This document shows positions 27,446 to 48,777 of a stretch of 64,000 nt of DNA, one piece after another (the stretch's first letter is position 1; each line of letters starts with the position of its first letter). The notes under the pieces are model-generated. The model did no database searches and was not told the DNA's origin. It worked only from the letters and a program-made list of their open reading frames with translations. Source of the DNA: a virus. Both the position numbers and the translations under genes were made by a program. The stretch is taken from IMG/VR virus record IMGVR_UViG_3300020462_000001, positions 1-64,000 of that record. The stretch is one strand, 5' to 3'.

Positions 27446-27874
27446 TCAAGCACCAAAATAATCTTTTCTAAAATATCGGTTCATTATGTTTGAATTGTAG
27501 TATCTAGGAGTTCCATCCCCCATAGATTCCGTAAGCACATTGTTCTTGAATAGTGCTTCTGTTTCTGCAAAATTAGTCTTACCCTTTGTGAGGTGAAGAG
27601 ACAGAATCTCTCTACGGAACATCTCCTTCCCTAAGAGTTTCACATCCTCTTTCAACTCATCACAGGATCCATAATACTTTCTCCAATCAGACTCACCCCT
27701 TACCTTGCGTTTCTTACCCTTAGGCGTACGGAAAGTCCAGAAGTATTTACGTCCGATGTATTGACGCTGGGTGGAAAGGTTGGTAATGAGATAAACAAAG
27801 CCAAAGTTGTCCCGAACATCAGCCCCATTAAAATGTTGGTTATGATAAGTCCACGGGTTTTCATATTCACACAC
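27446..27874 (-). CDS. GIY-YIG-like endonuclease (142 aa)
   Basis: FGFVYLITNLSTQRQYIGRKYF carries the VYxI...YIGRK core of GIY-YIG nucleases. DWRKYYGSCDELKEDVKLLG and ETEALFKNNVL supply the conserved Arg/Tyr region and the catalytic-type Glu. The small size implies a single catalytic domain without a separate DNA-binding module. It lies beside nrdB/nrdA, a frequent neighbourhood for freestanding homing endonucleases in T4-like phages, though many cyanophage copies appear resident. The start is GTG at 27874 with no clear SD. Confidence 0.7.
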   Translation of the reverse strand: MCEYENPWTYHNQHFNGADVRDNFGFVYLITNLSTQRQYIGRKYFWTFRTPKGKKRKVRGESDWRKYYGSCDELKEDVKLLGKEMFRREILSLHLTKGKTNFAETEALFKNNVLTESMGDGTPRYYNSNIMNRYFRKDYFGA

Positions 27875-33583: not shown

Positions 33584-34090
33584 TCAAGGAGTAGGATAAT
33601 CAGTACCACCAGTGGTGATTCCTGACATAGCTACAAGAGTTTCTTTCTTGACTCTAAGTTCACCTGAACTATCGTTGTATGTGGTAACACCAACCCAACC
33701 TTCGTGAGTCACTTCATATGAAGTTGCAACTGCGGCATTGCCAACACCATACACAAATGAATCACCGGAAGGTGAACCTTTCTCAGAATAAGTAGAATCC
33801 AAAATAGATGATTTTGGAAGTTGCGATACACCGAAAGCAGCTCCAGAAATTGCTGCCCCACTCAATCCAGCGGTAGAACCGATAGTACAAGAAGTGGCAC
33901 TTGCGATACTTACAATCACAGCGTCACCAAAGTAAGTACCACTCTTTGCCCCAAAACGAATAACGTCGCCTTCTTGAGCAGATCCAGTTTGTCCGAAAGA
34001 AGTGCCTGTTCCAGTAACAACGCCCGTACCATAATCGAGGACGACGGTACCCACACTATCTACGTTATCATTGTTTCCCCAAAGTGCCAT
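33584..34090 (-). CDS. Probable virion structural protein (168 aa)
   Basis: Gly/Ser/Thr-rich beta protein with no charged core: MALWGNNDNVDSVGTVVLDY, GTGTSFGQTGSAQEGDVIRF, SYEVTHEGWVGVTTYNDSSG. I associate such proteins with cyanomyovirus head or neck decoration, but this is from memory. A perfect T4 late box TATAAATA lies 34 bases upstream of the ATG, behind a strong terminator, which supports late expression. Confidence 0.75.
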   Translation of the reverse strand: MALWGNNDNVDSVGTVVLDYGTGVVTGTGTSFGQTGSAQEGDVIRFGAKSGTYFGDAVIVSIASATSCTIGSTAGLSGAAISGAAFGVSQLPKSSILDSTYSEKGSPSGDSFVYGVGNAAVATSYEVTHEGWVGVTTYNDSSGELRVKKETLVAMSGITTGGTDYPTP

Positions 34091-34124: not shown

Positions 34125-34132
34125 TATTTATA
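34125..34132 (-). promoter_or_regulatory. T4-type late promoter, perfect TATAAATA
   Basis: Exact match to the T4 late box on the minus strand, 34 bases before the ATG at 34090 and directly after the terminator's T run. Confidence 0.8.
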
Positions 34133-35363: not shown

Positions 35364-36629
35364 CTACTTTTTCTTATTCTTATTTATGAAACTCTTAATA
35401 TCATAACCCTTATATGGCTTTGCACCATCTTGAAGGTTAGTAGGTTCACCCTTCTCAAAACCAGGAGTTAGTTTTGCAATTCTCTTGAAGTTACCAGAAG
35501 TTCCAACCAAAGTATTTGGATGAGACTTATCTCTCATCTCACTATCCATCTTAACTTCAGTATATTCTTTAAGATCTTTCACCCAAGACTTGAACATAAT
35601 ATTATCTTCTGTTACACAGATGAGGTAGTTAGTTCCTCTACGAACAATTTTACCTACTAATCCAGTGTTCAGGTTCTCAACTAAAGTATTCAAGTTGAAA
35701 ATCTTTTTAGTTACATAGTTCTCACGAAGATTTCTCCAGTCAAACTTAGGTGCAATCTCCCAGAGACTCCACGATTCTGTCGTAACTTTCATTGCCTTAC
35801 GAACAGTATTCATGATAGACTTCGCTGTCTTATCATCTACAGTGTCTGGAATACCAGTCCTAAACGTCTCAAAATCATTCTCTGATGCTGCCTTTCTCAT
35901 CTTAGATGCAGACATTCCTTCTACACCTTCACCTTCTGCATCTCTCTCACCAGCTGAAATGGTTTCAATGTTTCCAAAGTCATACAACTTACCATTGTAT
36001 TTCTGAGCCAAACTATCAAACTCAGATACTCTATCAGATCCAACTACGATCTGAACATCAGAATATCCTTCTGCATCTGCTGACTTGAGAGCATCAAATA
36101 CAGTAACAATCCCTTCATCATTGATGATATCATCAGCATGATCAGGGAACATCTGTTTCATCAAAGAAGTCTTTTGATTAGGATCAAGTGGATTCTTCTT
36201 AGGATCAAATGATCTGGAAGGATAGATTTTCAAATCACCCTTAGCAACAGACCTCGCTTGATCTAATAACTTCTGATGACCAACAGTTGGTGGATTGAAC
36301 CTACCAAATACTATTGTCAACGTCTCTCCACTTCTATCTCCACCCGATTCTTCTTCACCACTACCAGCTGGTGTCTCTTCTTCTGAGGATGATCTCTTAC
36401 TTGCACCCTCATCATCACTTTTAACTACTCTTTGTATACCACTTTCTTCCTGACCACCAGTTGACTTCCTATCAGTGAACACAAGTTCCCCACCTTGTGT
36501 TCTTGCTTTAACATTTCCACCACGATCTACCCAGTTACCACTACCATCAGAAGTAAGACCCAACTTTCTTGCTTTCTCTGATGCTCTTGTGACTCTCGCT
36601 TCTGATAAAAAATTAAAGAAGTCTTTCAT
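35364..36629 (-). CDS. Nucleotidyltransferase (NMNAT-like) with capsid-targeting-like N-terminus (421 aa)
   Basis: N-terminus MKDFFNFLSEARV resembles T4 internal-protein targeting peptides (MKTYQEFIAEARV in IPIII). Residues 16-52 form a small SEKARKLGLTSDGSGNWVDR module. From about 103, LTIVFGRFNPPTVGHQKLL has the TxGH nucleotidyltransferase motif; IYPSRSFDPKKNPL, IVVGSDRVSEF and GMSASKMRKAA complete an NMN/nicotinate adenylyltransferase-like core. A C-terminal domain (residues 290-421) is unknown. A late-type box lies 23 bases upstream. Probably packaged; substrate unproven. Confidence 0.75.
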   Translation of the reverse strand: MKDFFNFLSEARVTRASEKARKLGLTSDGSGNWVDRGGNVKARTQGGELVFTDRKSTGGQEESGIQRVVKSDDEGASKRSSSEEETPAGSGEEESGGDRSGETLTIVFGRFNPPTVGHQKLLDQARSVAKGDLKIYPSRSFDPKKNPLDPNQKTSLMKQMFPDHADDIINDEGIVTVFDALKSADAEGYSDVQIVVGSDRVSEFDSLAQKYNGKLYDFGNIETISAGERDAEGEGVEGMSASKMRKAASENDFETFRTGIPDTVDDKTAKSIMNTVRKAMKVTTESWSLWEIAPKFDWRNLRENYVTKKIFNLNTLVENLNTGLVGKIVRRGTNYLICVTEDNIMFKSWVKDLKEYTEVKMDSEMRDKSHPNTLVGTSGNFKRIAKLTPGFEKGEPTNLQDGAKPYKGYDIKSFINKNKKK

Positions 36630-36651: not shown

Positions 36652-36659
36652 TATTTATC
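36652..36659 (-). promoter_or_regulatory. Late-type promoter (GATAAATA)
   Basis: One mismatch from TATAAATA, 23 bases before the ATG at 36629. Overlaps the last two bases of the sigma-factor gene. Confidence 0.5.
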
Positions 36660-37350
36660 AGACAAAATGTTTTCTGAGTTTACCCATAGATTTCTTCTCA
36701 ATAAGGTGAATCATAGCGTAACTTACACCAAAGATCTTACCACATTCTCGTTGTGATTTGGCATAGAAACCATCAAGACCATAACGATGACACATAACAC
36801 TATACTCACGTTCTGTGAGAACTTCTTTCATTTGATCCTTGACAATCTCTAACTCACAATCAAGTTCAGTGTAGTATTCATCAGATACCAAGTCCTCAAG
36901 AGTAGAGTTGTCACCAATTGACCTATTGAGAGACATCACAAAAGGAAGAGAGTTCTTGAGTTTAAGATGTTCTTCTGGATTACTCTTCTCCAACTTACGA
37001 AGCTTCTCTTTTACATGGGAAGGAATACGAACTTTACCATGATTATTGGTGTGAAACTTACTCACATAACAATAGATCCAATAGTAGGAATAGGTGGAGA
37101 ACCTACAACCTTCTTTCGGATCAAACTTACGAATTGCTTTCAGTAACCCAATCACACCCTCTTGGAACATATCCTCAAAAGAATATTGTTCATTCCTACA
37201 ATACATCTTCTTGGTAACTTTACTTACCAGACCAAGATTATGCGTAACCATCCTCTCCAAAGATCGATCACATCCTTGTTGTGCTTCCTTACACAGTTCA
37301 ATTTCTTCAACGTGGGAAAGTCGTTTGGTCTTCATTAAGGGGATCAACAT
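36658..37350 (-). CDS. Sigma-70 family RNA polymerase sigma factor (230 aa)
   Basis: Region 2: MVTHNLGLVSKVTKKMYCRN, FEDMFQEGVIGLLKAIRKFD and CRFSTYSYYWIYCYVSKF (-10 melting region). Region 3-like KVRIPSHVKEKLRKLEKS. Region 4: EVLTEREYSVMCHRYGLDG and SQRECGKIFGVSYAMIHLIE, an HTH. This is much closer to bacterial RpoD-group proteins than to T4 gp55, which is present separately at 62481-62960. It would redirect host RNA polymerase. A consensus promoter precedes it. ATG 37335 is an alternative start. Confidence 0.85.
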   Translation of the reverse strand: MLIPLMKTKRLSHVEEIELCKEAQQGCDRSLERMVTHNLGLVSKVTKKMYCRNEQYSFEDMFQEGVIGLLKAIRKFDPKEGCRFSTYSYYWIYCYVSKFHTNNHGKVRIPSHVKEKLRKLEKSNPEEHLKLKNSLPFVMSLNRSIGDNSTLEDLVSDEYYTELDCELEIVKDQMKEVLTEREYSVMCHRYGLDGFYAKSQRECGKIFGVSYAMIHLIEKKSMGKLRKHFV

Positions 37351-37396: not shown

Positions 37397-39370
37397 TCAG
37401 ATGGACAGATCTCTAAGTGACCTCTTCAACCTCTCAATCATAAACCTACCAGTTTCCAATGACTCAGAAAGAATCTTCTTGAATTCTTTATTTTTCAAGA
37501 ATCTGTCAGCAAATCCACCATTCTTTTTGATATGATCAATCAACGTTGACTTTGCTGCACCATCATTCTGTTGATCAAATGCAGCCTGACTACCCATCTC
37601 TCTTGCATCTCTCCAAACTTGAGAAAGTCTTGCTCTACCTGCCTCATCTTGATCCATCAATGTGGATACAAATGCAGAATAAACCTTGTCATCTAACTTT
37701 CCTTGATTACCTCTGCCAGATTTCTTCTTCATATAACCACCAAGATCAAGTTCTTTGATCATCTCATAACCAATTCTATTCTTGACCTTAGGAAGTGACA
37801 CTCCCTTAGTCTTACCAAACTTACCAATATTGCTGTTGATAGTCTTTGCAATCTTTCTATCATTCTCTGAATACAGATCAAACAATTCAGAAGTTGCACT
37901 CTCTGACAACTTACCATTTTCCATGAACAGAGAATTGACAAGTCTGGCCTTATCATTAACAGTATTAGATTCTTCAGTCAGAGCATCTCTCGTTTCATAA
38001 TCCTCATCAGTAAAGTCCTTAAGTTTATCAACTTCGGTCTTATACCACTCATCCATACCCTTATCGAGTTTGGTTTGATTGAGGTTCGATGCTGTCAAGA
38101 TAAAGTTATCAACATTCTCACGTTGATCTTTCATCTCCTGTGTTGGAGCTCCATCATCTTTATTGTTAAATCCTCTCACATGTTCCAGATCTGTAGCATT
38201 CAAGTCAAGATCTGCACCACTATAACCATCCTTACCACCTTGTTGTAAGAATAGTTTTGCAACCATCAAACCACGCAATCTTCCATTTGCAACACCATTT
38301 GTCTTACCAGTCAACTTGCCTCTCAGTTGATTGCCATCTTTATCAATACCTAATGAGTGTCCAGTGTAGCTGTCAGATATCTTACCTGCACCTTGAAAAT
38401 TGCTCCTCAGTTTTTGTGGAAGTGCATCAAAGAATATCTCAGCTTCTTCATCAGTTACTTCAATAGCTCTAGTGGACTCTACAAACTCTTTAATTGTTTC
38501 AGGACTACCATCACCATATCCTTCTTGTAGTCTTTTTCTATTTGATTCTAGAAGTTCATAATCAACTTTACCTAATGCATTTTTACCTGCACCAGAATTA
38601 ATTCTACCAGTATAACCATAAGCTAAGGACAGGGCATTAACAAAGGACTTCTTTTTATCAGGATCTTCAATCTTACCGATAGCTTCTTTAATATCGTTAA
38701 TCCTTTTTTCCTGTTGCTTCGTCACTTCGCCAAGCTTTTCTTTATATTCACTTGTTACTTTTTCTACTTCATCATCTAGATCAAGGTCAGCATCTTCTTT
38801 TTCTTTTTCAGCAACTTTATCCTCAATTGTAGGGAAGTCTTCTGGTTTCTTTTCTGGTGCCTCTTCAGTTGCCTGAGGTTCTTCAGTAGGTTCCTCTTCT
38901 GCAGGAGGCTCTTCTTCAACAGCAGCAGCCGCGGCAGCCTGTTGATTTGCCATAGCAACCAGTGTGTTAGCTGCTCTCTTTACTTCCTTCTGTCTTTCTG
39001 GTGTTACCTTTCTACCACCAGTAAATTCTTTTGCCTTTTTCTCGGCATACTCTTGATCACTTATACCATCAGGAATCTGAGGAAGTGCAGTAGGTGTTGC
39101 CTGTGCACCAGAAGCATCTTGACTAAACTGGTCTAATGACTTTTTCTCAGCTTCTGTTTCTGCTTGTCCTGCAGGGGAGTTTGCCATTCTGTCTGGGAGA
39201 TCATAAGGCTCCAGTCTATCACCTACATTCTTATATCTCTTCTGAGTTTTGGGATCGATATAAACACCACGAGCCTGGTGTGAATAACCAAGCTCTGATG
39301 CCTTTTCGGCTCCTTTACTTTCTTGGAGAGATCTTACATGTTTGAAATACTTAAATACATCTCTCGTCAT
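37397..39370 (-). CDS. Virion-type protein with HNH nuclease-like core (657 aa)
   Basis: The N-terminus VFKYFKHVRSLQESKGAEKA plus an ELGY...GVYIDP module resembles the 35364-36629 protein. Residues 130-230 are Glu/Ala-rich and disordered. At about 385-450 lie LQQGGKDGYSGADLDLNATD, then LEHVRGFNN and ENVDNFILTASNLNQTKLDK, an HNH-like pattern (D-x-E-H, then N..N). The C-terminal part is helical and basic. It shares a late message with 39374. Such proteins are annotated as structural in cyanomyoviruses; nuclease activity is inference. The Cys usually found in many HNH zinc knuckles is absent. Confidence 0.65.
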   Translation of the reverse strand: MTRDVFKYFKHVRSLQESKGAEKASELGYSHQARGVYIDPKTQKRYKNVGDRLEPYDLPDRMANSPAGQAETEAEKKSLDQFSQDASGAQATPTALPQIPDGISDQEYAEKKAKEFTGGRKVTPERQKEVKRAANTLVAMANQQAAAAAAVEEEPPAEEEPTEEPQATEEAPEKKPEDFPTIEDKVAEKEKEDADLDLDDEVEKVTSEYKEKLGEVTKQQEKRINDIKEAIGKIEDPDKKKSFVNALSLAYGYTGRINSGAGKNALGKVDYELLESNRKRLQEGYGDGSPETIKEFVESTRAIEVTDEEAEIFFDALPQKLRSNFQGAGKISDSYTGHSLGIDKDGNQLRGKLTGKTNGVANGRLRGLMVAKLFLQQGGKDGYSGADLDLNATDLEHVRGFNNKDDGAPTQEMKDQRENVDNFILTASNLNQTKLDKGMDEWYKTEVDKLKDFTDEDYETRDALTEESNTVNDKARLVNSLFMENGKLSESATSELFDLYSENDRKIAKTINSNIGKFGKTKGVSLPKVKNRIGYEMIKELDLGGYMKKKSGRGNQGKLDDKVYSAFVSTLMDQDEAGRARLSQVWRDAREMGSQAAFDQQNDGAAKSTLIDHIKKNGGFADRFLKNKEFKKILSESLETGRFMIERLKRSLRDLSI

Positions 39371-39373
39371 TGA

Positions 39374-40447
39374 TCAACCTTCCCAGGAATTAACAATCTC
39401 TTCGATACGAGCCAGTTCAGCTTCAGAGAATTCTACACCCTCTTTCTTCATCTTCTTGCCAAATCTCATGGCTTGTTGACGTTGATACTGCTTTTCAATC
39501 TTTTTCTCGTCACGTCCATACTTCTTGGACTTGCCTTGTTCGATTGATTCTTTGTCAGCAGCACGGCCGATCTGTCTATCGATCTTGGTTTGCTTTTCTT
39601 TATTGATAGGAATGAAACCTTCAGTCTCAATTTCCTCTTTCTTCATGTTCTTGGCAATGGCCTTACGTCTCTTGGCGAGAAACTCATCAGAAGAATCCTT
39701 ATCACCATCATTATCGATGTCTCCATCTTCCTTACCTACGGGATCAAGTTTCTTCTCATAGATGGCTGCGTATGCATCACCCCAACCCTGTCTCAGAGAA
39801 GAATCACCTTCCTCCATAGAACCACGAGTTCTCTCAGCCTTATCATGATCGAAGTTCTTATCCTTCATAGGATCATAAGTCTTTGACTTACCACCAGCAT
39901 ACTTCTTCTTCATTCTATCAGCGTAAGCCTGAGGTGCTTCACCAGGCTTTCTAGCTTCAATGAGATCAGAGATCATCTCAATCAAACCACGTTTGATATT
40001 CTCTCTATCTTCATGAATCAAAGCTGCGTGAAGTTTCTGATTACCAACTTCATGAGAAACTCTGTTGTTCCACTTCTCAGTCAGAGGCTTATTCTGACGA
40101 TACTTAAGGAACTCTTCCTCACAGTTTCTTTCAGCCTTATCGGTTACGGTACCAATTACAGTTTCAAATGCTTCTACAATCTGAGTGATCTTACTATCTC
40201 TCAACGAAGAAGAGACACCTTTAGATTCTTCTAAAACAGATTTAACAACACTACAAGCCTCTTCAAGATCAAGACCATACTGGAAAAGACCTTCTACAAT
40301 TTCTTCACAAACTTCAACCAAATCAGACTCAAGCATTTGGCCCAAGTTCATCCCACTGATTTGATCTCTGGCTTGTGTAAGTTCTTCGCTAATAGTATCA
40401 TCATGTACAGCAGAGTATGCCTTATACAGATCTCTCATATCTTGCAT
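39374..40447 (-). CDS. Virion-type protein, helical and charged (357 aa)
   Basis: ATG at 40447 gives MQDMRDLYKAYSAVHDDTI; the longer frame would need TTG. Similar N-termini (LYxxYSxVH, LSAIYNQSI) recur in neighbouring genes. The middle is helical and the C-terminal third is Lys/Glu-rich with DNDGDKDSSDEFLAKRRK, a calcium-binding-like Asp run. A perfect TATAAATA lies 31 bases upstream. Probably an internal head or scaffold-associated protein; function not shown. Confidence 0.65.
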   Translation of the reverse strand: MQDMRDLYKAYSAVHDDTISEELTQARDQISGMNLGQMLESDLVEVCEEIVEGLFQYGLDLEEACSVVKSVLEESKGVSSSLRDSKITQIVEAFETVIGTVTDKAERNCEEEFLKYRQNKPLTEKWNNRVSHEVGNQKLHAALIHEDRENIKRGLIEMISDLIEARKPGEAPQAYADRMKKKYAGGKSKTYDPMKDKNFDHDKAERTRGSMEEGDSSLRQGWGDAYAAIYEKKLDPVGKEDGDIDNDGDKDSSDEFLAKRRKAIAKNMKKEEIETEGFIPINKEKQTKIDRQIGRAADKESIEQGKSKKYGRDEKKIEKQYQRQQAMRFGKKMKKEGVEFSEAELARIEEIVNSWEG

Positions 40448-40472
40448 GGTTTCGGCCAAATAAAATCTATTA

Positions 40473-40679
40473 TTAGTTATTTATATCTTCTAGGATTTCC
40501 TTTTCATTTTGATAAGGAACTTCCTTTCCACTATAAATGTCCCATCCTTTTTTAAGTTCTGGAACTAACCATACATCCCATTCTTTCATGCACTGCTGTC
40601 TGTTGAAATCATTACTATTACACATACCCAACACTAAGATGAACATATTAATTATTTTAAGGATAATCGATATGTCCAT
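40473..40679 (-). CDS. Small exported or anchored protein (68 aa)
   Basis: A hydrophobic N-terminus (IILKIINMFILVLGMCNSN) suggests a signal or lipoprotein-type sequence, with Cys at LGMC. The rest is polar (WDVWLVPELKKGWDIYSGKE). It overlaps the upstream small gene by 23 nt and the late promoter region at its end. Weak support other than ORF length and N-terminus. Confidence 0.5.
   Translation of the reverse strand: MDISIILKIINMFILVLGMCNSNDFNRQQCMKEWDVWLVPELKKGWDIYSGKEVPYQNEKEILEDINN
40478..40485 (-). promoter_or_regulatory. T4-type late promoter, perfect TATAAATA
   Basis: Exact late-box match 31 bases upstream of the ATG at 40447, inside the end of the 40473-40679 gene. Confidence 0.8.
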
Positions 40680-41072: not shown

Positions 41073-41268
41073 TCTTTTTATTGAATCCAAAGGGGCCTTC
41101 TTTTTCTTCTTCTTTCTTGAACTGCATCGCTACAGCTCCAAGTGATTCCATAACCTTGAGAATATCTTCTGTTTTGGCACCTTCACCAAGTTCTTTGGCA
41201 ACATACCAATACTTACTCCAGAAGTGTTCTCCAGCCTTCTGGTAGTCTTCAAGTGTTAATACTTTCAT
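41050..41268 (-). CDS. Small charged protein (72 aa)
   Basis: MKVLTLEDYQKAGEHFWSKY, VAKELGEGAKTEDILKVMES and a Lys/Glu tail. It starts with an ATGA overlap on the mazG stop. I recall the same kind of protein near mazG or gp41 in other cyanophages, always unnamed. A role beside MazG or the helicase is only suggested by position. Confidence 0.6.
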   Translation of the reverse strand: MKVLTLEDYQKAGEHFWSKYWYVAKELGEGAKTEDILKVMESLGAVAMQFKKEEEKEGPFGFNKKNEESTEE

Positions 41269-41669
41269 AGGTCTCCTTCTTTACGATTTTCAGACTGGTG
41301 AACATCAAACTCTCCACCAGGATAACGAGACTTCAGTTTATCCACATTCATCTCAATGATTTCATCAAGTGATACATTCAATCCCATACAGGCTTGTGCA
41401 ACATACCACATAACATCACCCAACTCACGCTTCAGGTGGAACAGATTCTCTTCTGTCACAGGCTTACCTTGGAATACAATCTTCTTCACAACCTCAGTAA
41501 ACTCACCTGCCTCTGCTGACATTCCTACAGCAGCAGTCAGAAGTCGATGTGTTTCAAATCCTTCACCCCTCAGTTCTTGAATACGATACTCAAAAGCATC
41601 TTCATCTTTACTAGGTTGAGATGTAACGGCATTTACAAACTCAAGATATGCATCAGTATTTACAGTCAT
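41265..41669 (-). CDS. mazG: MazG-like nucleotide pyrophosphohydrolase
   Basis: 134 aa single domain. VGMSAEAGEFTEVVKKIVFQ contains the EAGE metal motif, and LFHLKRELGDVMWYVAQAC contains ELGD. These acidic pairs bind Mg and hydrolyse (d)NTPs to NMPs and PPi. Cyanophage MazG has been proposed to act on (p)ppGpp, but published work suggests preference for dGTP or dCTP; both statements are from memory. It shares TAATG with the gp41 stop and so is coupled to the helicase. Confidence 0.9.
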   Translation of the reverse strand: MTVNTDAYLEFVNAVTSQPSKDEDAFEYRIQELRGEGFETHRLLTAAVGMSAEAGEFTEVVKKIVFQGKPVTEENLFHLKRELGDVMWYVAQACMGLNVSLDEIIEMNVDKLKSRYPGGEFDVHQSENRKEGDL

Positions 41670-43042
41670 TAGAATTTAAATCCCTCAAATGATTTCTTAG
41701 GTTTATCATCGTTATTATACTCTTCGTCTTGTTTGTTGTCAAGAAGATCATCCTGTGCAGACTGTTCACAATCATACAGTCTCATCTTTGCTCTGTCAAT
41801 ACCAACAACAAACCTCTTACAAAGGTTTGCGTCATTGTATCGATTCTTCAATTGCTTCACCAATATCTGTCCCAACTCTTCAAGCTCATCTGTTGAAATA
41901 AGGGCAAACATAAGATCAGCAGTAGCAGGGAGACCAAAGGACTCAGAAGTATCAGTAAGCTCAACATCAGAGCTACCATAACCAGAACGAGTGGTCTGGG
42001 TGGCAGATACGACAGGTACGTTCGCTTCGACAGCGAGGCCTCGAAGTTCTTCAGCAATAGACTTGACAATTGTATATGAATTGACACTACCTCCACCGCG
42101 ATACCGCGAGGAAGCACATATATTAAGGTAATCAATGAAAATAATATCAGGTCTAAATGACTTCTTAAGTGCAAGCTCATTAAGAAGTGCCGAAAAATGT
42201 CCACTATGTGCACTCGCAGTTGGGTATTCTTTAATGATAAGTGTGCCTTGAGTCTTCTGTGATAGATTGTTTACCTTTGTTTCAAAGGTTTGTTTAGGAA
42301 GTTCACCTATGTCCTGAATATTTACATTCAATAGATTGGCATCAATCCTTTCTGCAATCTTCTCTTCTGCCATCTCCAAAGTAATATACAATACATTCTT
42401 ACCAGAAAGAAGAACAGAAGAAGCCATATGACACATAAACAAAGACTTGCCGACACCAGTCCCAGCAAGGGCAATGTTAAGTGTTTTATTAGGTAACCCA
42501 CCTTTTGTGATCTTATTGAAGTATTCCAGATCGAAAGGAATTCTATTCTCTTTCCTATGATAAGATTCGAATCTTTCTTCATAGTCTAAAAGGTAATCGT
42601 GTCCAACATGATTATCAAAACTAACTGCAAGTGCATCAGAAAGAATGGCTGGAATAGCATCAGGGTTCTTGTCCTTACTCTGTCCATCAGCAATACCAAT
42701 AGATTCAACCAAAGCCAGATAGATTGCTCTATCTCTACACCACTTCTCGGTAGTATTACATAACCACTCAAACTCAGCAGGTTCATCGTTTAAGTGACTG
42801 ATAAGATGTGTAATTGATTTGAATTGTTGTTCATTGATATCCTTTCGTTTACCAACTTCAATACTCAGAACTTCTTTTGTGGGTACATTGTTGTACTCAT
42901 TAACAAAGTTTGAGATCTCATCGAATACAACCTTCTGGTCATTGTCTTCGAAGAAATCTTCTTGCAAAAAGGGGATAACCTTTCTAAGGTACTCTTCATT
43001 GTGAAGTAGATTACGAAGGATAAGAAACTCAATTTCATTCAT
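41669..43042 (-). CDS. 41: Replicative DNA helicase, T4 gp41-like
   Basis: 457 aa. Helical N-terminal domain (IEFLILRNLLHNEEYLRKVI). Walker A LNIALAGTGVGKSLFMCHMA near residue 195. Walker B DIIFIDYLNICASS. VVSATQTTRSGYGSSDVELT and QLKNRYNDANLCKRFVVGID match DnaB-family motifs H3/H4. It unwinds DNA at the fork with the gp61 primase. Length matches T4 gp41. No intein, although gp41 is a known site for split inteins in marine phages. Confidence 0.95.
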   Translation of the reverse strand: MNEIEFLILRNLLHNEEYLRKVIPFLQEDFFEDNDQKVVFDEISNFVNEYNNVPTKEVLSIEVGKRKDINEQQFKSITHLISHLNDEPAEFEWLCNTTEKWCRDRAIYLALVESIGIADGQSKDKNPDAIPAILSDALAVSFDNHVGHDYLLDYEERFESYHRKENRIPFDLEYFNKITKGGLPNKTLNIALAGTGVGKSLFMCHMASSVLLSGKNVLYITLEMAEEKIAERIDANLLNVNIQDIGELPKQTFETKVNNLSQKTQGTLIIKEYPTASAHSGHFSALLNELALKKSFRPDIIFIDYLNICASSRYRGGGSVNSYTIVKSIAEELRGLAVEANVPVVSATQTTRSGYGSSDVELTDTSESFGLPATADLMFALISTDELEELGQILVKQLKNRYNDANLCKRFVVGIDRAKMRLYDCEQSAQDDLLDNKQDEEYNNDDKPKKSFEGFKF

Positions 43043-44545: not shown

Positions 44546-44683
44546 CTAATCAGTTATTTTTAATTTTTCCCAATAGGGAGTTTGACCTTTTGATGCTTTC
44601 ATCATAGCAATATAAGTCATTACCTCTTCTATAGAAGAAAGTATTATGGGGGGTTTAATTGGTGAGTGCCAGAGTTTGTACAT
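44546..44683 (-). CDS. Small protein between gp43C and uvsX (45 aa)
   Basis: The ATG (44681-44683) overlaps the polymerase stop (TAATG) and the frame ends in TAG at 44546, one base before the uvsX ATG. The product (MYKLWHSPIKPPIILSSIEE, then YIAMMKASKGQTPYWEKLKI) has basic and aromatic residues. Complete filling of the gap with start and stop overlaps supports a real gene. No function known. Confidence 0.65.
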   Translation of the reverse strand: MYKLWHSPIKPPIILSSIEEVMTYIAMMKASKGQTPYWEKLKITD

Positions 44684-45843
44684 TATCCGAAGAATAGTTC
44701 TAAATTTGCAACCTTTTCAACATTCCACCCAATAGAATCCAATACGACTTTTAAAGGTTCAAGGAAAGCCTTGTTAAATTGTAACTCATAATCAATATAC
44801 TTGTGAAGACCAGTCTCATATGGAAAATCTGAAATAAAACTAATCACATTCTCACGAATAGGATTAGCCTTCTTCAAATACACAAACTTGATCTTATCTC
44901 CATTCTGGATGGTAGTATACTTATTATCCAGTCCTTTCTCTTTCATATAATAATTATAAAGCAAAGCTCCTCTCACATGGATTGGACACCCTTTGCCATA
45001 TATTGTTGAATGGTTCTTATGTTTATTTACATCAGAAATAGAACGGGGAAATGAGAGCTCTTCTGGAGAAAGGTTATTGAATTTAGTTCTAGCATTATCA
45101 ATAAACCTAATCATCTCATCTTCTGTTCCCTTCATCATCAACTTAAGGGCATCCTTAATCATAGTTCTACAAGGTGCAGGTGTTGATGACTTAACAGCTT
45201 CAATACCCATGATCTTGAGTTTGGGTTCCTCATAACGAACACCCTCACTATCCCACACATTGAGGATGTATCTCTTCTTTGCTGTCCAGATTCCACGGTC
45301 AGCGATATTCTCTCGCTTCATCTGCATCTTCTGATCATATGCGTTTACATAATCAGCCAGTTCCACATAACACTTATCGATGAAGGGTTCTAGTTGATCC
45401 TGACACACTTTATCAAGTAGATTTACAACCTTCTCTTTATCATCCTTCTGTTTAGATAAAAACTTATCTACCAAAGGTCCGAGGTTTAGATATACAGAAT
45501 CAGTATCAACAGCAATCACATAATCTTTATCTGTTTTGAGGAGATCATTCAGATACTTATTGAGTTTATTCTCAATCCATCGAATAGAGGTTTGACCAGA
45601 TAGTGTAATAGCTTCTGCATTTGCCAACTTATAGTATCGAAACCATTGATTACCAATGGCACCATAAGCTGAGTTCAAACAAATCTTTCTCACCATCTGG
45701 AAGTTGTTAAACTTGGCAATATCTTTTACAGTTTGGTCTCTAAGTTTTAAGAGTTGACTATCACTGAGTTTAGAATAGTCTTTATCAGATTGTATAATCT
45801 CCTCTTCTGGTCCCTCTCCAGCACCACCAATCAGATAACCCAT
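44683..45843 (-). CDS. 43B: DNA polymerase PolB (T4 gp43-like), C-terminal fragment
   Basis: 386 aa beginning MGYLIGGAGEGPEEEIIQSD, then FNNFQMVRKICLNSAYGAIG (Pol motif B, KxxxNSxYG near residue 55) and DYVIAVDTDSVYLNLG (motif C, DTDS). KKRYILNVWDSEGVRYEEPK is the KKRY thumb motif. It ends NLELFFG, a clamp-binding tail like that of T4 gp43. It lacks exonuclease and motif A, which are in 47317-48777. The two together make a full polymerase of about 870 aa. ATG overlaps a tiny lipoprotein stop. Confidence 0.93.
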   Translation of the reverse strand: MGYLIGGAGEGPEEEIIQSDKDYSKLSDSQLLKLRDQTVKDIAKFNNFQMVRKICLNSAYGAIGNQWFRYYKLANAEAITLSGQTSIRWIENKLNKYLNDLLKTDKDYVIAVDTDSVYLNLGPLVDKFLSKQKDDKEKVVNLLDKVCQDQLEPFIDKCYVELADYVNAYDQKMQMKRENIADRGIWTAKKRYILNVWDSEGVRYEEPKLKIMGIEAVKSSTPAPCRTMIKDALKLMMKGTEDEMIRFIDNARTKFNNLSPEELSFPRSISDVNKHKNHSTIYGKGCPIHVRGALLYNYYMKEKGLDNKYTTIQNGDKIKFVYLKKANPIRENVISFISDFPYETGLHKYIDYELQFNKAFLEPLKVVLDSIGWNVEKVANLELFFG

Positions 45844-45989
45844 TACTTACAAACCTCTTTTGAGTAGTTTACACCAATTCTATTTCCATAGTAGATAAAA
45901 CAGTCAGTGTCCACACTGTCCTCCACCTTACTTGAACACCCAGCCATTAAAAGAATAACCAATACTATGTAACCTTTCCAATAACCCAT
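45843..45989 (-). CDS. Tiny lipoprotein (48 aa)
   Basis: ATG at 45989 overlaps the end of purM; the frame ends TAA overlapping the gp43B ATG (TAATG). The product has a lipoprotein signal YIVLVILLMAGCSSK with lipobox MAGC at residue 18. The mature peptide SSKVEDSVDTDCFIYYGNRI has a second Cys. This looks like a small lipid-anchored peptide of the Rz1 size class, but no partner is seen. Its translation is probably coupled to that of the polymerase fragment. Confidence 0.6.
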   Translation of the reverse strand: MGYWKGYIVLVILLMAGCSSKVEDSVDTDCFIYYGNRIGVNYSKEVCK

Positions 45990-46894
45990 GACCTCATACC
46001 ATGTGGTACATCTGAAATAATTTCTTGAGTCAATATAGCTGCATCTTTTGGAACAACCACACAGAATCCAATACCTAGATTGAATACATTACGCATCTCT
46101 TCCTCAGCAATGTCTCCTGCTTCTTGAATCTTATTGAAGAGTTCTGGTCTCAACCAAGAGTCATAATCTACATCAACTGTCAAACCCTTAGGAAGACACC
46201 TAGGAAGGTTCTCAGGGATACCACCACCTGTGATGTGAGACATACCTAAGATAGGAACCACATCTAACAAGTCCTTAACAAGAGGAGCATAGATTGTAGT
46301 TGGTACTAACAACTCTGGCATCTCTTTATAGTAAATGTAATTTCTCCACAACATATCATTGACCAGTGTATATCCATTACTATGAAGACCACTACTCTCA
46401 ATACCAATGACTAAATCACCTGCTCTGATACTTCTACCATCAACAATATCAAACTTCTCTACAATACCAGTACAGAAACCAGCAAGGTCATAGTCAGTTG
46501 CTCTAAAATGTTCAGCAGTCTCACCACCTAGGAGTTGCATATCTGCAATCCTACAACCCTCAGCAACTCCATGGATAATATCACTTACATTAGCATCAAG
46601 TGTTTTAGTAGAGATATAGTCTAGAAAATATAATGGTTTAGCGCCAGAACATATAACATCATTGACGCACATAGCAACAAGATCTTGACCGATAGTGGTG
46701 TAATCATTAGCAATCCTACAGATATTGATCTTAGTTCCAACACCATCAGCACCAGACACTAGTACAGGTCTTTCATATCCTGACGGTACTTCCATCATTC
46801 CATTAAACCCACCAACACTAGGTGATAATGTTTTGATATACTCTACAAAGGATCGTCCCTTCTGAATGTCAACACCAGATGTCTTATAGTCCAT
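45965..46894 (-). CDS. purM: Phosphoribosylaminoimidazole synthetase (AIR synthetase)
   Basis: 309 aa. SGADGVGTKINICRIANDYT (Gly-rich loop with K and D), DLVAMCVNDVICSGAKPLYF, YDLAGFCTGIVEK and GMSHITGGGIPENLPRCLP are hallmark PurM strings. It converts FGAM to AIR in purine synthesis. Cyanophages carry purM to support nucleotide supply. Unusually it lies between the two halves of gp43. Slightly shorter than bacterial PurM (about 345 aa) at the C-terminus, as common in phage copies. Confidence 0.95.
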   Translation of the reverse strand: MDYKTSGVDIQKGRSFVEYIKTLSPSVGGFNGMMEVPSGYERPVLVSGADGVGTKINICRIANDYTTIGQDLVAMCVNDVICSGAKPLYFLDYISTKTLDANVSDIIHGVAEGCRIADMQLLGGETAEHFRATDYDLAGFCTGIVEKFDIVDGRSIRAGDLVIGIESSGLHSNGYTLVNDMLWRNYIYYKEMPELLVPTTIYAPLVKDLLDVVPILGMSHITGGGIPENLPRCLPKGLTVDVDYDSWLRPELFNKIQEAGDIAEEEMRNVFNLGIGFCVVVPKDAAILTQEIISDVPHGMRSWVIGKVT

Positions 46895-47147
46895 TTTTAA
46901 TCTTCTCCAATTGTTCTAGTTTCCATATGATATAGTCAATCGTTGGAATACACTGAGGATTCCATCCAACAAACCCATATGTTTGTTCACTAGGCATCTT
47001 CCAACATTCAGCATCATCATTCTCAAGATCTAATGACTTACGATACTCTTCCTCACCAAACATAACAACTGCTCGTTCTGCTTGGTTCAAACTCTTGAAA
47101 CAATCAAAAGAATTTCTTCTAATGATTTCAGGGATTTTGTGTTTCAT
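46884..47147 (-). CDS. Unknown protein between gp43 halves (87 aa)
   Basis: Basic N-terminus MKHKIPEIIRRNSFDCFKSL, then RAVVMFGEEEYRKSLDLEND, AECWKMPSEQTYGFVGWNPQ and a helical end IIWKLEQLEKIKNGL. No homing-endonuclease motif (GIY-YIG, HNH, LAGLIDADG) is visible. Starts with an ATGA overlap and overlaps purM by 11 nt. Not recognised. Confidence 0.65.
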   Translation of the reverse strand: MKHKIPEIIRRNSFDCFKSLNQAERAVVMFGEEEYRKSLDLENDDAECWKMPSEQTYGFVGWNPQCIPTIDYIIWKLEQLEKIKNGL

Positions 47148-47320
47148 TTTCCAAATAGTATACTACAAACTACATACAATCCCATTGCAGACCAGTATCC
47201 TAAGGTTGTCAATCCAAAAATACCTGGTATTACAGCATTCCATACTAACATAACAATTAGAGGACTTACAAATAATTTTATCAGTATTTTACATAATGAT
47301 TCTTTTTGTTTAGGGTTCAT
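47144..47320 (-). CDS. Small two-helix membrane protein (58 aa)
   Basis: ATG at 47320 overlaps the gp43A stop (ATGA), and its own TGA overlaps the next ATG (ATGA). Helices LIKLFVSPLIVMLVWNAVIP and TTLGYWSAMGLYVVCSILFG with a short loop. Similar small proteins with WNxxxPxxFGL...GYxxAxxL occur in many marine phages, as I recall, unnamed. Placed between the polymerase halves. Confidence 0.65.
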   Translation of the reverse strand: MNPKQKESLCKILIKLFVSPLIVMLVWNAVIPGIFGLTTLGYWSAMGLYVVCSILFGK

Positions 47321-48777
47321 AGTCCTCTCCTCTTCATCTCACCTTCAATATCAACTAACTTTTGTTTACTCTTCAACATCTCACCTTTGAATGCCTTACG
47401 TTCTGCATACATCTTCTCCATCAATTCAGGAAGGAAACCTTTAACATCCTTACGGAACATAGCTCCGTTAGCACATACTGCATAATCATTATACATCTCA
47501 AAGGTGAGTTTCTCATTAAGAATCTTATCGACAGTAACTGATGGATGTTTCTCTTCCAAAAGAGTTTCAGGTGAGATGTTGTATTGCATCATCAGGTGAG
47601 GATACAGAGAGTTAAGGTCAAAAGATACAACCCAATCATATACACCAGGAACAGGTTCTTTAACATAAGCTCCAGCAAACTTCTCATCCTTAGCAGATGT
47701 TTGTTTCTGAGGAATTACAATATTCCTCTTCTTCAGATAGTTATAGATGATCGTATCCCACAACTTTACTTGACCCATAGGATCAACAAAGTTCACTTTG
47801 GCATCAAATGCCATAGTAATAACCAGTTCAATCAAACGGAGTTTGTCCTCCATCCTATCAACAAGTTCCACGTCAACGATGTTGTAATCTACAAACTTCT
47901 TCCAGTTACCATCATAGAACTCTTTGAAGGTATTGAACTCTGAGTGGTCCAACTTCTTCTGTCCAAGTTCTACCTCAGCAATAAAGTCCAGTTTATAGCT
48001 CTCCCTATTCACATAAGTAAATTTCTTATAAAGTTCCAGAAAATCCAAAACAGTCACACCAGCCATGGTATAAACATTGTTTGGACGACCATGAATAAAC
48101 ACCTCATCATGAGACACAATGCCCCAAGGAGAGAACCTCCTCACATTTCTGTCTCCCATGATACGAGACACACGGCCAAGAAGATAAGGGATATCATAGA
48201 AACGACAGTTCCACCCTGTCACAACCTCAGGAGGATCTGTAGACCACCAATGGATGAATGCATTCAACATATCAATCTCATCTTCATAATGATGATATGT
48301 CACATTCTTTTGAGTAGGTGTATATGGTTTCCTACCCCAAGTAATGATGTTTTTGGTTGTGTAATCTTGAATGGAGATGGTCAACATCTCCTCGGCACAA
48401 GAATCAGGTGAAGGGAATCCATCTTCTGACTTCACCTCAATATCAATAGTGACCAGTTTGATCTTCTTAATATCCCATTTGATTTCATTTTGGGGATACT
48501 TTTCAGAGATATATTGGTAGAGATACTTCTCATTACCATAGATCTTGAAACCATCTACACCTTCGTACTTCTTATAGAACTCTCTACAATCTCTTACATT
48601 TCCAGGTTGAATAGGTTCAACATTCTCACCTTCGAGTGTTTTCCACTCACTTTCTTTCTTGGATTTCACATACAGAGTAGGGAAAAACTCTTCCTTATAC
48701 TGAACACGTCGTCCATTCTCATAACCACGAACCAGGAACTCATTCCTGACCATTTGAATGTTGGTGTAAAAATCCAA
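47317..48777 (-). CDS. 43A: DNA polymerase PolB (T4 gp43-like), N-terminal fragment
   Basis: 486 aa. Exonuclease motifs: Exo I VTIDIEVKSEDGFP, Exo II GWNCRFYDIPYLLGRV, Exo III YNIVDVELVDRM. Pol motif A VVSFDLNSLYPHLMMQYNIS lies near residue 395. The chain ends MLKSKQKLVDIEGEMKRRGL and a TGA, before motif B. It therefore holds proofreading and the first catalytic Asp; motifs B and C are in 44683-45843. The break falls between palm motif A and the finger helices. The stop is ATGA-coupled to a membrane-protein gene. Confidence 0.93.
   Translation of the reverse strand: MDFYTNIQMVRNEFLVRGYENGRRVQYKEEFFPTLYVKSKKESEWKTLEGENVEPIQPGNVRDCREFYKKYEGVDGFKIYGNEKYLYQYISEKYPQNEIKWDIKKIKLVTIDIEVKSEDGFPSPDSCAEEMLTISIQDYTTKNIITWGRKPYTPTQKNVTYHHYEDEIDMLNAFIHWWSTDPPEVVTGWNCRFYDIPYLLGRVSRIMGDRNVRRFSPWGIVSHDEVFIHGRPNNVYTMAGVTVLDFLELYKKFTYVNRESYKLDFIAEVELGQKKLDHSEFNTFKEFYDGNWKKFVDYNIVDVELVDRMEDKLRLIELVITMAFDAKVNFVDPMGQVKLWDTIIYNYLKKRNIVIPQKQTSAKDEKFAGAYVKEPVPGVYDWVVSFDLNSLYPHLMMQYNISPETLLEEKHPSVTVDKILNEKLTFEMYNDYAVCANGAMFRKDVKGFLPELMEKMYAERKAFKGEMLKSKQKLVDIEGEMKRRGL

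Follow-up and report, generated by a model that had tools for sequence, protein, structure and literature searches.

Does a T4-like cyanophage carry a DNA nuclease of its own in the head, and if so, which DNA would such an enzyme cut? The question is raised by an open reading frame of 657 codons with an ATG start, at positions 37397–39370 on the minus strand of the window studied here, which is the stretch of 64,000 nucleotides from position 1 to 64,000 of the IMG/VR record IMGVR_UViG_3300020462_000001. The whole virus record has 90,534 bases and holds one copy of the gene. Judged by its core genes, which include those for a gp55 sigma factor, UvsX, a split gp43 DNA polymerase, the gp44 clamp loader, NrdA, NrdB, gp46/gp47, gp45 and RegA, the window comes from a T4-like phage of the type that infects marine cyanobacteria. 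We consider it likely that the protein is a capsid-targeted HNH nuclease that is ejected with the genome and cuts host or rival DNA, although its activity, propeptide cleavage, ejection and target are all inferred.

Results

A conserved HNH core

The HNH core of the window protein consists of D381, Y383, D394-x-E396-H397, N422 and N431. Residues 381–434 (38069–38230, minus strand) are modelled as a beta-beta-alpha unit, with strands at 393–397 and 423–427 and a helix at 428–434. Within it, D394-L-E396-H397 (38180–38191, minus strand) is the predicted metal/catalytic His motif, as judged by conservation and by its alignment with the D-x-D-H of Cas9. N422 (38105–38107, minus strand), which has an aligned Asn in the Cas9 HNH region, and N431 (38078–38080, minus strand), in the terminal helix, are the predicted HNH asparagines.

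Of 50,697 phage records, 13 match the protein, all of them Synechococcus phages or cyanophages, and the S-TIM5 and S-CBWM1 homologues among them share just 24–25% identity with it. IMG/VR yielded first 6 and then 61 related loci, and these 61, together with the window and S-TIM5, make up 63 sequences that were reduced to a non-redundant set of 47. G379, D381, Y383, E396, H397, N422 and N431 are invariant throughout this set, and D394 is kept in 46 of the 47, the single exception being Glu. One of the two peptide patterns used to fetch the 61 loci spans D381–Y383, so that the search itself favoured these two residues to some extent; neither pattern includes E396, H397, N422 or N431, whose conservation is free of such selection. 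The linker and C-terminus are mostly only 10–40% identical to the window protein across the homologues, whereas the residues at catalytic positions never vary.

An AlphaFold2 model of the full-length protein, built from 38 sequences (mean pLDDT 76.5), contains the beta-beta-alpha core and has a large, acidic N-terminal half that is partly of low confidence. The full-length model gave weak Foldseek results (29 matches, several of them Cas9, none at E ≤ 0.001), and searches of Pfam and of PDB sequences with the full-length protein or profile returned nothing useful, the PDB matches looking like low-complexity or chance similarity. Folding the conserved core domain on its own (residues 254–455, 38006–38611, minus strand; pLDDT 87.9, pTM 0.87) improved the structural comparison. 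VIA-align of this core against the PDB returned 36 entries at Z ≥ 2, every one a nuclease: 34 Cas9 entries, the Gme HNH nickase 4h9d and the type II restriction enzyme 4l0k. The top Z of 5.0, at 3.8 Å over 93 residues, is modest, as is the Foldseek result, for which the best PDB matches were Cas9 HNH domains (E 0.42, probability 0.80, none at E ≤ 0.001). We give weight to these modest values because the matches are uniformly nucleases and are accompanied by identity of the key residues. When the core profile was compared with all PDB sequences, without use of any structure, Cas9 came first (E 0.012) and made up 17 of the 24 listed matches; the best alignment placed the His motif and the Asn region in register with the Cas9 HNH domain.

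The window protein itself has no HNH match in Pfam, not even to HNH_4 (PF13395) at E ≤ 1. That family was matched at E ≤ 1 by 16 of the 38 core sequences (best 3.9e-5), and we did not see its curated cut-off of 22 bits reached, the best whole-protein score among the relatives being 20.9 bits. The HNH domains of type II-C Cas9 (GeoCas9 and NmeCas9; PF13395 HNH_4) nevertheless share with the window protein a beta-beta-alpha fold over 89–97 aligned residues, as well as the D-x-(D/E)-H and Asn positions. Unlike Cas9, the window protein lacks a RuvC match, totals 657 residues, has other flanks and is fused to a head-targeting module. An identity as Cas9 in its entirety was rejected, as no RuvC family was found in Pfam at E ≤ 1 for the window protein and eight relatives.

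The sequence is thus of HNH type, and a beta-hairpin and helix with His and Asn in place make the protein a predicted member of the HNH, or beta-beta-alpha-metal, nuclease superfamily. This fold is the prediction of a model, and metal-dependent cleavage is inferred without an assay. A first-pass annotation had placed the frame and quoted the motif strings correctly; the strings lie at about residues 376–434 and the motif is not due to chance. Its claim of a Cas9-type HNH fold held at the level of the domain, through the structural, PDB-profile and HNH_4 matches, though the protein is not a Cas9. The Asn spacing that it gave, N-x-x-x-N, was wrong, N422 and N431 being separated as N-x8-N. Two outcomes had been named beforehand as refuting it, namely loss of the His and Asn in close homologues and a predicted structure without the beta-beta-alpha metal fold; both were looked for, but the residues are kept in 47 of 47 sequences and the fold is present in the model.

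An N-terminal module shared with virion proteins

Residues 1–57 (39200–39370, minus strand) form a module that is modelled as a helix followed by four short strands, and a variable acidic, Ala-Glu-rich linker (residues 58–253, 38612–39199, minus strand) joins it to the core. The first 17 residues (39320–39370, minus strand) are a putative capsid-targeting propeptide that ends in L-Q-E (residues 15–17), a site resembling those of T4 gp21, at which cleavage is inferred. A profile of 27 module sequences, run over 274 frames of the window, matched two ORFs: the nuclease and a cytidyltransferase of family T4-GC190 at 35364–36629 on the minus strand (E 4.9e-6). Over six cyanophage records the profile matched eight places in four of them, which are the gp14 kinase and gp12 of S-CREM2, the g130 kinase and g128 of S-CRM01, and the nuclease and cytidyltransferase of both S-B05 and ACG-2014f. 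The two S-CREM2 matches are the only ones in that genome. The module was also present on the cytidyltransferases of S-SSM5, S-8S55 and ACG-2014d (three of three tested), and no match was found in S-TIM5 or S-CBWM1, which have the most distant homologues. S-CRM01 g128 (L073:2702–3253) is a short ORF that consists of little more than the module; it lies near the kinase g130, which also bears the module, and is perhaps a remnant of cargo loss.

The sharing of this module, which is shown here, can be set beside virion proteomics published by others for related phages. In S-CREM2 virions, 21 unique peptides of gp14 and 28 of gp12 were detected by mass spectrometry (PMC10665884, Table 3), and both records are annotated '(virion protein)'. 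The T4-GC190 cytidyltransferase family was detected in S-SM1 virions (PMC3037559), virion kinases are also found in S-CRM01 and S-TIM5 (PMC10665884), and the S-TIM5 homologue of the nuclease is annotated 'virion structural protein and packaging'. Proteomics cannot tell a packaged protein from a co-purified one, and the S-CREM2 authors noted that such proteins may only be highly expressed (PMC10665884). Furthermore, the S-CREM2 cytidyltransferase was detected in virions without a module match, so the module is not the sole route into virion preparations. We nonetheless regard the reading as a head protein as well supported, with the reservation that virion presence has been published for module-bearing relatives and not for the window phage.

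A [LI]xE sequence occurs within the first 30 residues of all 27 modules, though the middle residue varies and its position shifts by up to five. The same pattern is found in 21 of 63 minus-strand ORFs of the window, including the two module proteins, and as a proof of targeting in its own right it was rejected. It lends support to a prohead-protease-like site, inferred from sequence alone, without proving one. In the major capsid protein gp23 of S-CRM01 there is an L-A-E near residue 58, roughly the position expected for T4-type processing. The T4 internal proteins IPI, IPII, IPIII and Alt are alike in having a short N-terminal propeptide ending in Glu, in being head proteins and in carrying cargo that varies among related phages (PMC9026906). 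They differ from the window protein, in which the cargo is a predicted DNA nuclease of about 600 residues, a small conserved domain follows the targeting part, and ejection is inferred.

A late promoter motif ahead of the operon

The gene upstream of the nuclease (39374–40459, minus strand) belongs to the same operon, is syntenic in relatives and has no known function; it has a TTG start, with a likelier ATG at 40447, and stops 3 bases ahead of the nuclease ATG. A T4-type late promoter motif, TATAAATA, lies at 40478–40485 on the minus strand, about 20 nt ahead of the TTG and about 30 nt ahead of the ATG. Taken alone, the window shows no enrichment of this motif (2 observed against 3.99 expected), and a general excess of late promoters in it was rejected; the second occurrence, at 34125–34132, is about 35 nt upstream of an ORF at 33584–34090. 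Across the relatives, however, the motif is enriched: of 52 non-redundant loci, 26 carry it on the coding strand in the 1600 nt ahead of the nuclease ORF, where mononucleotide shuffles predict 7.3, and it is present in 2 of 37 downstream control stretches. The first-pass claims of late transcription together with the 39374 gene, behind a perfect late promoter, and of a virion-targeting N-terminus are therefore both supported, the one by the motif and its enrichment in relatives and the other by a module shared with proteins detected by mass spectrometry in the virions of relatives.

One locus, several nuclease domains

Downstream of the nuclease the next gene encodes a gp55-like sigma factor (36658–37350, minus strand; phrog_351). 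On the upstream side we place MazG at 41265–41669 and a gp41-type helicase at 41669–43042, both read from the sequences and the S-SSM5 gene order without a profile search. The nuclease gene sits amid replication genes, and no terminase was found among the window ORFs scanned. The order MazG, upstream gene, nuclease, gp55 and/or cytidyltransferase is kept at most loci from the module scan described below for which the contig is long enough. Elsewhere in the window, gp43 DNA polymerase is encoded in two ORFs (47317–48777 and 44683–45843) with a purM-like gene at 45965–46894 between them (region 44683–48777), and a SegE-like GIY-YIG endonuclease (27446–27874; PF19835, E 3.6e-51) is flanked by a tail-lysozyme-like gene and NrdB.

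Three ACG-2014f isolates (C24, C8 and US26) have different nuclease domains at the same locus, where the order is Dam methylase, small gene, nuclease ORF, DNA adenine methylase, sigma factor and cytidyltransferase; two of the three isolates have additional small genes behind the nuclease. Their DNA is 96–99% identical up to about codon 208–228 of the nuclease ORF, cannot be aligned from there to the end of the ORF, and is again 87–92% identical after it. C24 has the window type, and US26 and C8 have two S-CREM2-like types that share 42% identity over 905 columns. A tblastn search found the window type in 2 ACG-2014f records and the other types in 19 listed ACG-2014f records (RefSeq copies included), without overlap.

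The window gene is likewise a chimera. A segment that covers the nuclease core and C-terminus (37397–38701, minus strand) has 77–79% DNA identity to the L012/L014 lineage (79% to L012), and its flanks match the L003/L015/L017/L018 lineage. The N-terminal module is 82–88% identical to those of L003, L015 and L018, whose cores are only 37–51% identical, whereas for L012, L013 and L002 the figures are 33–50% for the module and 85–88% for the core.

A scan of IMG/VR with the module alone gave 47 loci, 35 of them non-redundant; five of these (L006, L098, L105, L108 and L111) were left out as cut or broken, and 30 had a complete ORF. The cargo was the window-type HNH in 21, a second HNH type in five, a third in two, and a domain without recognisable HNH in the remaining two. 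As the queries were drawn from window-type proteins, these proportions are biased. All five members of the second type have sub-threshold matches to a Pfam HNH family (PF01844, E 0.0047–0.041), and the third type rests on a reading of motifs only. Behind the module there are thus at least three HNH types and one non-HNH domain. In the last case (L078:5980–8457 and L084:5977–8436) the module is fused to a long domain with '..D..ISLKK', and S-SSM5 and ACG-2014d have similar 'SLKK' stretches in separate genes that lie ahead of the slot. No informative match was found for this cargo in Pfam (L078 and L084), or in PHROGs or PDB sequences (L078 only); it is possibly another nuclease family, and to assign its '..D..ISLKK' stretch to the PD-(D/E)XK type is guesswork. 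Three cyanomyoviruses without the nuclease (L114:5145–6014, L115:4760–5962 and L116:4997–6004) have a DUF6267 protein (PF19782) in the slot before the cytidyltransferase; its KWDG stretch resembles motif I of nucleic-acid ligases.

S-CREM2 gp12 as a probable member of the same group

The 869-residue gp12 of S-CREM2 (WNL50931.1) is a distant relative of the window protein. Its authors described it as a 'CRISPR-Cas9 nuclease' present in the virion and suggested that it may have come from cyanobacterial hosts (PMC10665884). Over the core it aligns with the window family (hhalign E 1.7e-5, probability 78.8; blastp E 1.2e-4), and both proteins match phrog_3561, for which reason we interpret gp12 as belonging to the head-nuclease group and not as a CRISPR enzyme. 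It has an HNH core with Y-S-G, D-H-V and N..N-Q, a module match (E 2e-4) behind an M-A-E stretch, and detection in virions by mass spectrometry; it differs in its greater length and in a core only about 25% identical. No Cas9 or RuvC family was found in it in Pfam, nor any Cas9 feature beyond the HNH domain. The S-CREM2 type is matched by 31 phage records, and gp12 as a query found no IMG/VR relative. Directly after gp12 lies gp11 (L070:4055–4624), annotated 'restriction endonuclease EcoRI' and without a Pfam match at 1e-5, and about 1 kb beyond gp11 is a DNA adenine methylase.

DNA methyltransferases adjoin the nuclease in some relatives

Some relatives have a DNA methyltransferase directly beside the nuclease, and several families are represented: N6_N4_Mtase in L078, L084, L026/L086 and L032/L089, MethyltransfD12 in the L034, L038, L046 and L052 groups and in ACG-2014f, and a C5 methylase beside the S-TIM5 homologue. 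In L032, L109 and L113 a further adjoining gene is methylase-like by motif, without a Pfam match. Eight methyltransferase queries found none in the window and none at most loci, and a universal methyltransferase partner was rejected. The pairing may possibly serve self-protection, but is no more than suggestive.

Discussion

In the model we favour, the gene product would be a late head protein, recruited to the prohead core by its N-terminal module and probably cut after L-Q-E17 by the prohead protease. Its cargo, a nuclease of the HNH (beta-beta-alpha metal) class and Cas9-HNH type, would be packaged with the genome in a dormant state; once ejected into the next cell, it would cut DNA other than that of the phage, be it host chromosome, plasmid or rival phage. 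We infer an injected nuclease from the combination of late expression, targeting to the head, an HNH active site that looks intact, and an exchangeable cutting domain. Against it stand the lack of any assay, nuclease activity being inferred, and the modest structural scores (Z 5.0, Foldseek E 0.42).

One objection is that a nuclease in the head would destroy the phage genome. Fusions to T4 IPIII or its capsid-targeting sequence have taken EcoRI and staphylococcal nuclease into heads, and the head-borne staphylococcal nuclease digested phage DNA only after addition of Ca2+ (PMC9026906). The T4-borne nuclease thus waits in the head until metal is supplied, which answers the objection. As for the target, a review states that T4-like cyanophages lack denA, ndd and denB and that they break down host DNA either with lower efficiency or by an undescribed method (PMC2984593), which makes host DNA attractive. 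Rival phages, plasmids or host variation would account at least equally well for the variety of nuclease domains.

Since only the cutting domain is exchanged, we view the locus as a slot in which one nuclease effector can be exchanged for another while the delivery module ahead of it stays the same. Polymorphic toxins are delivered proteins with interchangeable enzyme domains, and the feature they suggest, a constant N-terminal delivery part and an exchangeable C-terminal effector, is met here. Polyvalent proteins (PMC5512222) are alike in the same respect. Unlike either, the proteins described here have one cutting domain behind a constant module. No adjacent immunity gene was found in the window, where the next gene is gp55. 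In the open-access literature searched we found no natural family of head-packaged nucleases besides S-CREM2, and no nuclease-domain swapping behind a head-targeting module.

The rival that survives best is that the protein is no effector but a packaging or DNA-processing nuclease, working in the prohead or at the motor in trimming, branch resolution or headful cutting. HNH proteins adjoin terminases in other phages. Late expression and head association fit this equally well, the homologue in S-CBWM1 is found about 1.4 kb downstream of the gene for the large terminase subunit, and the S-TIM5 record speaks of packaging. However, an essential enzyme should not be swapped for very divergent nucleases among near-identical genomes, nor be missing from most cyanomyoviruses; 13 phage records match the window type and 31 the S-CREM2 type, against 533 for the neighbouring cytidyltransferase. 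The position of the window gene, away from any terminase among the ORFs scanned, also argues against it. We therefore judge this rival unlikely, while it stays open mainly on account of the S-CBWM1 position. The first-pass annotation had left a head nuclease to act either on host DNA at entry or in packaging; its role remains inferred, and domain swapping favours entry.

HNH domains are common in homing enzymes, and the gene could be a selfish endonuclease that spreads its cassette to related phages, its association with the head being incidental. The swapped segment does speak for frequent recombination. Homing enzymes of this kind are expected to be small, stand-alone and sporadic, whereas here the HNH is the in-frame C-terminal domain of a large syntenic protein of 657 residues that also bears a head-targeting module and keeps its locus across many lineages, and the same slot is used by different nuclease types; this makes homing very unlikely. 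Also very unlikely is a structural or scaffold head protein whose HNH fold no longer cuts, for which the large acidic, partly low-confidence N-terminal half and the structural annotation of the distant S-TIM5 homologue can be cited, but against which the catalytic positions remain invariant in 47 of 47 sequences while linker and C-terminus diverge.

If we return to the injected nuclease, a bolder reading is possible but tentative: heads would carry exchangeable restriction-like enzymes, in some lineages an adjoining methyltransferase would mark the phage DNA, and the injected nuclease would at once attack unmodified host or rival DNA, so filling the gap left by denA, denB and ndd. Not all cyanomyoviruses have the family, so it cannot explain in general how host DNA is degraded.

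Head-packaged effectors are known from T4 (Alt and IPI), and EcoRI and staphylococcal nuclease have been loaded into heads artificially (PMC9026906). The present analysis offers an alternative reading of the S-CREM2 virion 'CRISPR-Cas9 nuclease', and for phages with this slot the question of host-DNA degradation (PMC2984593) becomes testable. If our interpretation is true, a natural, family-wide nuclease cargo with swapping would mean that phages load nucleases into their heads themselves.
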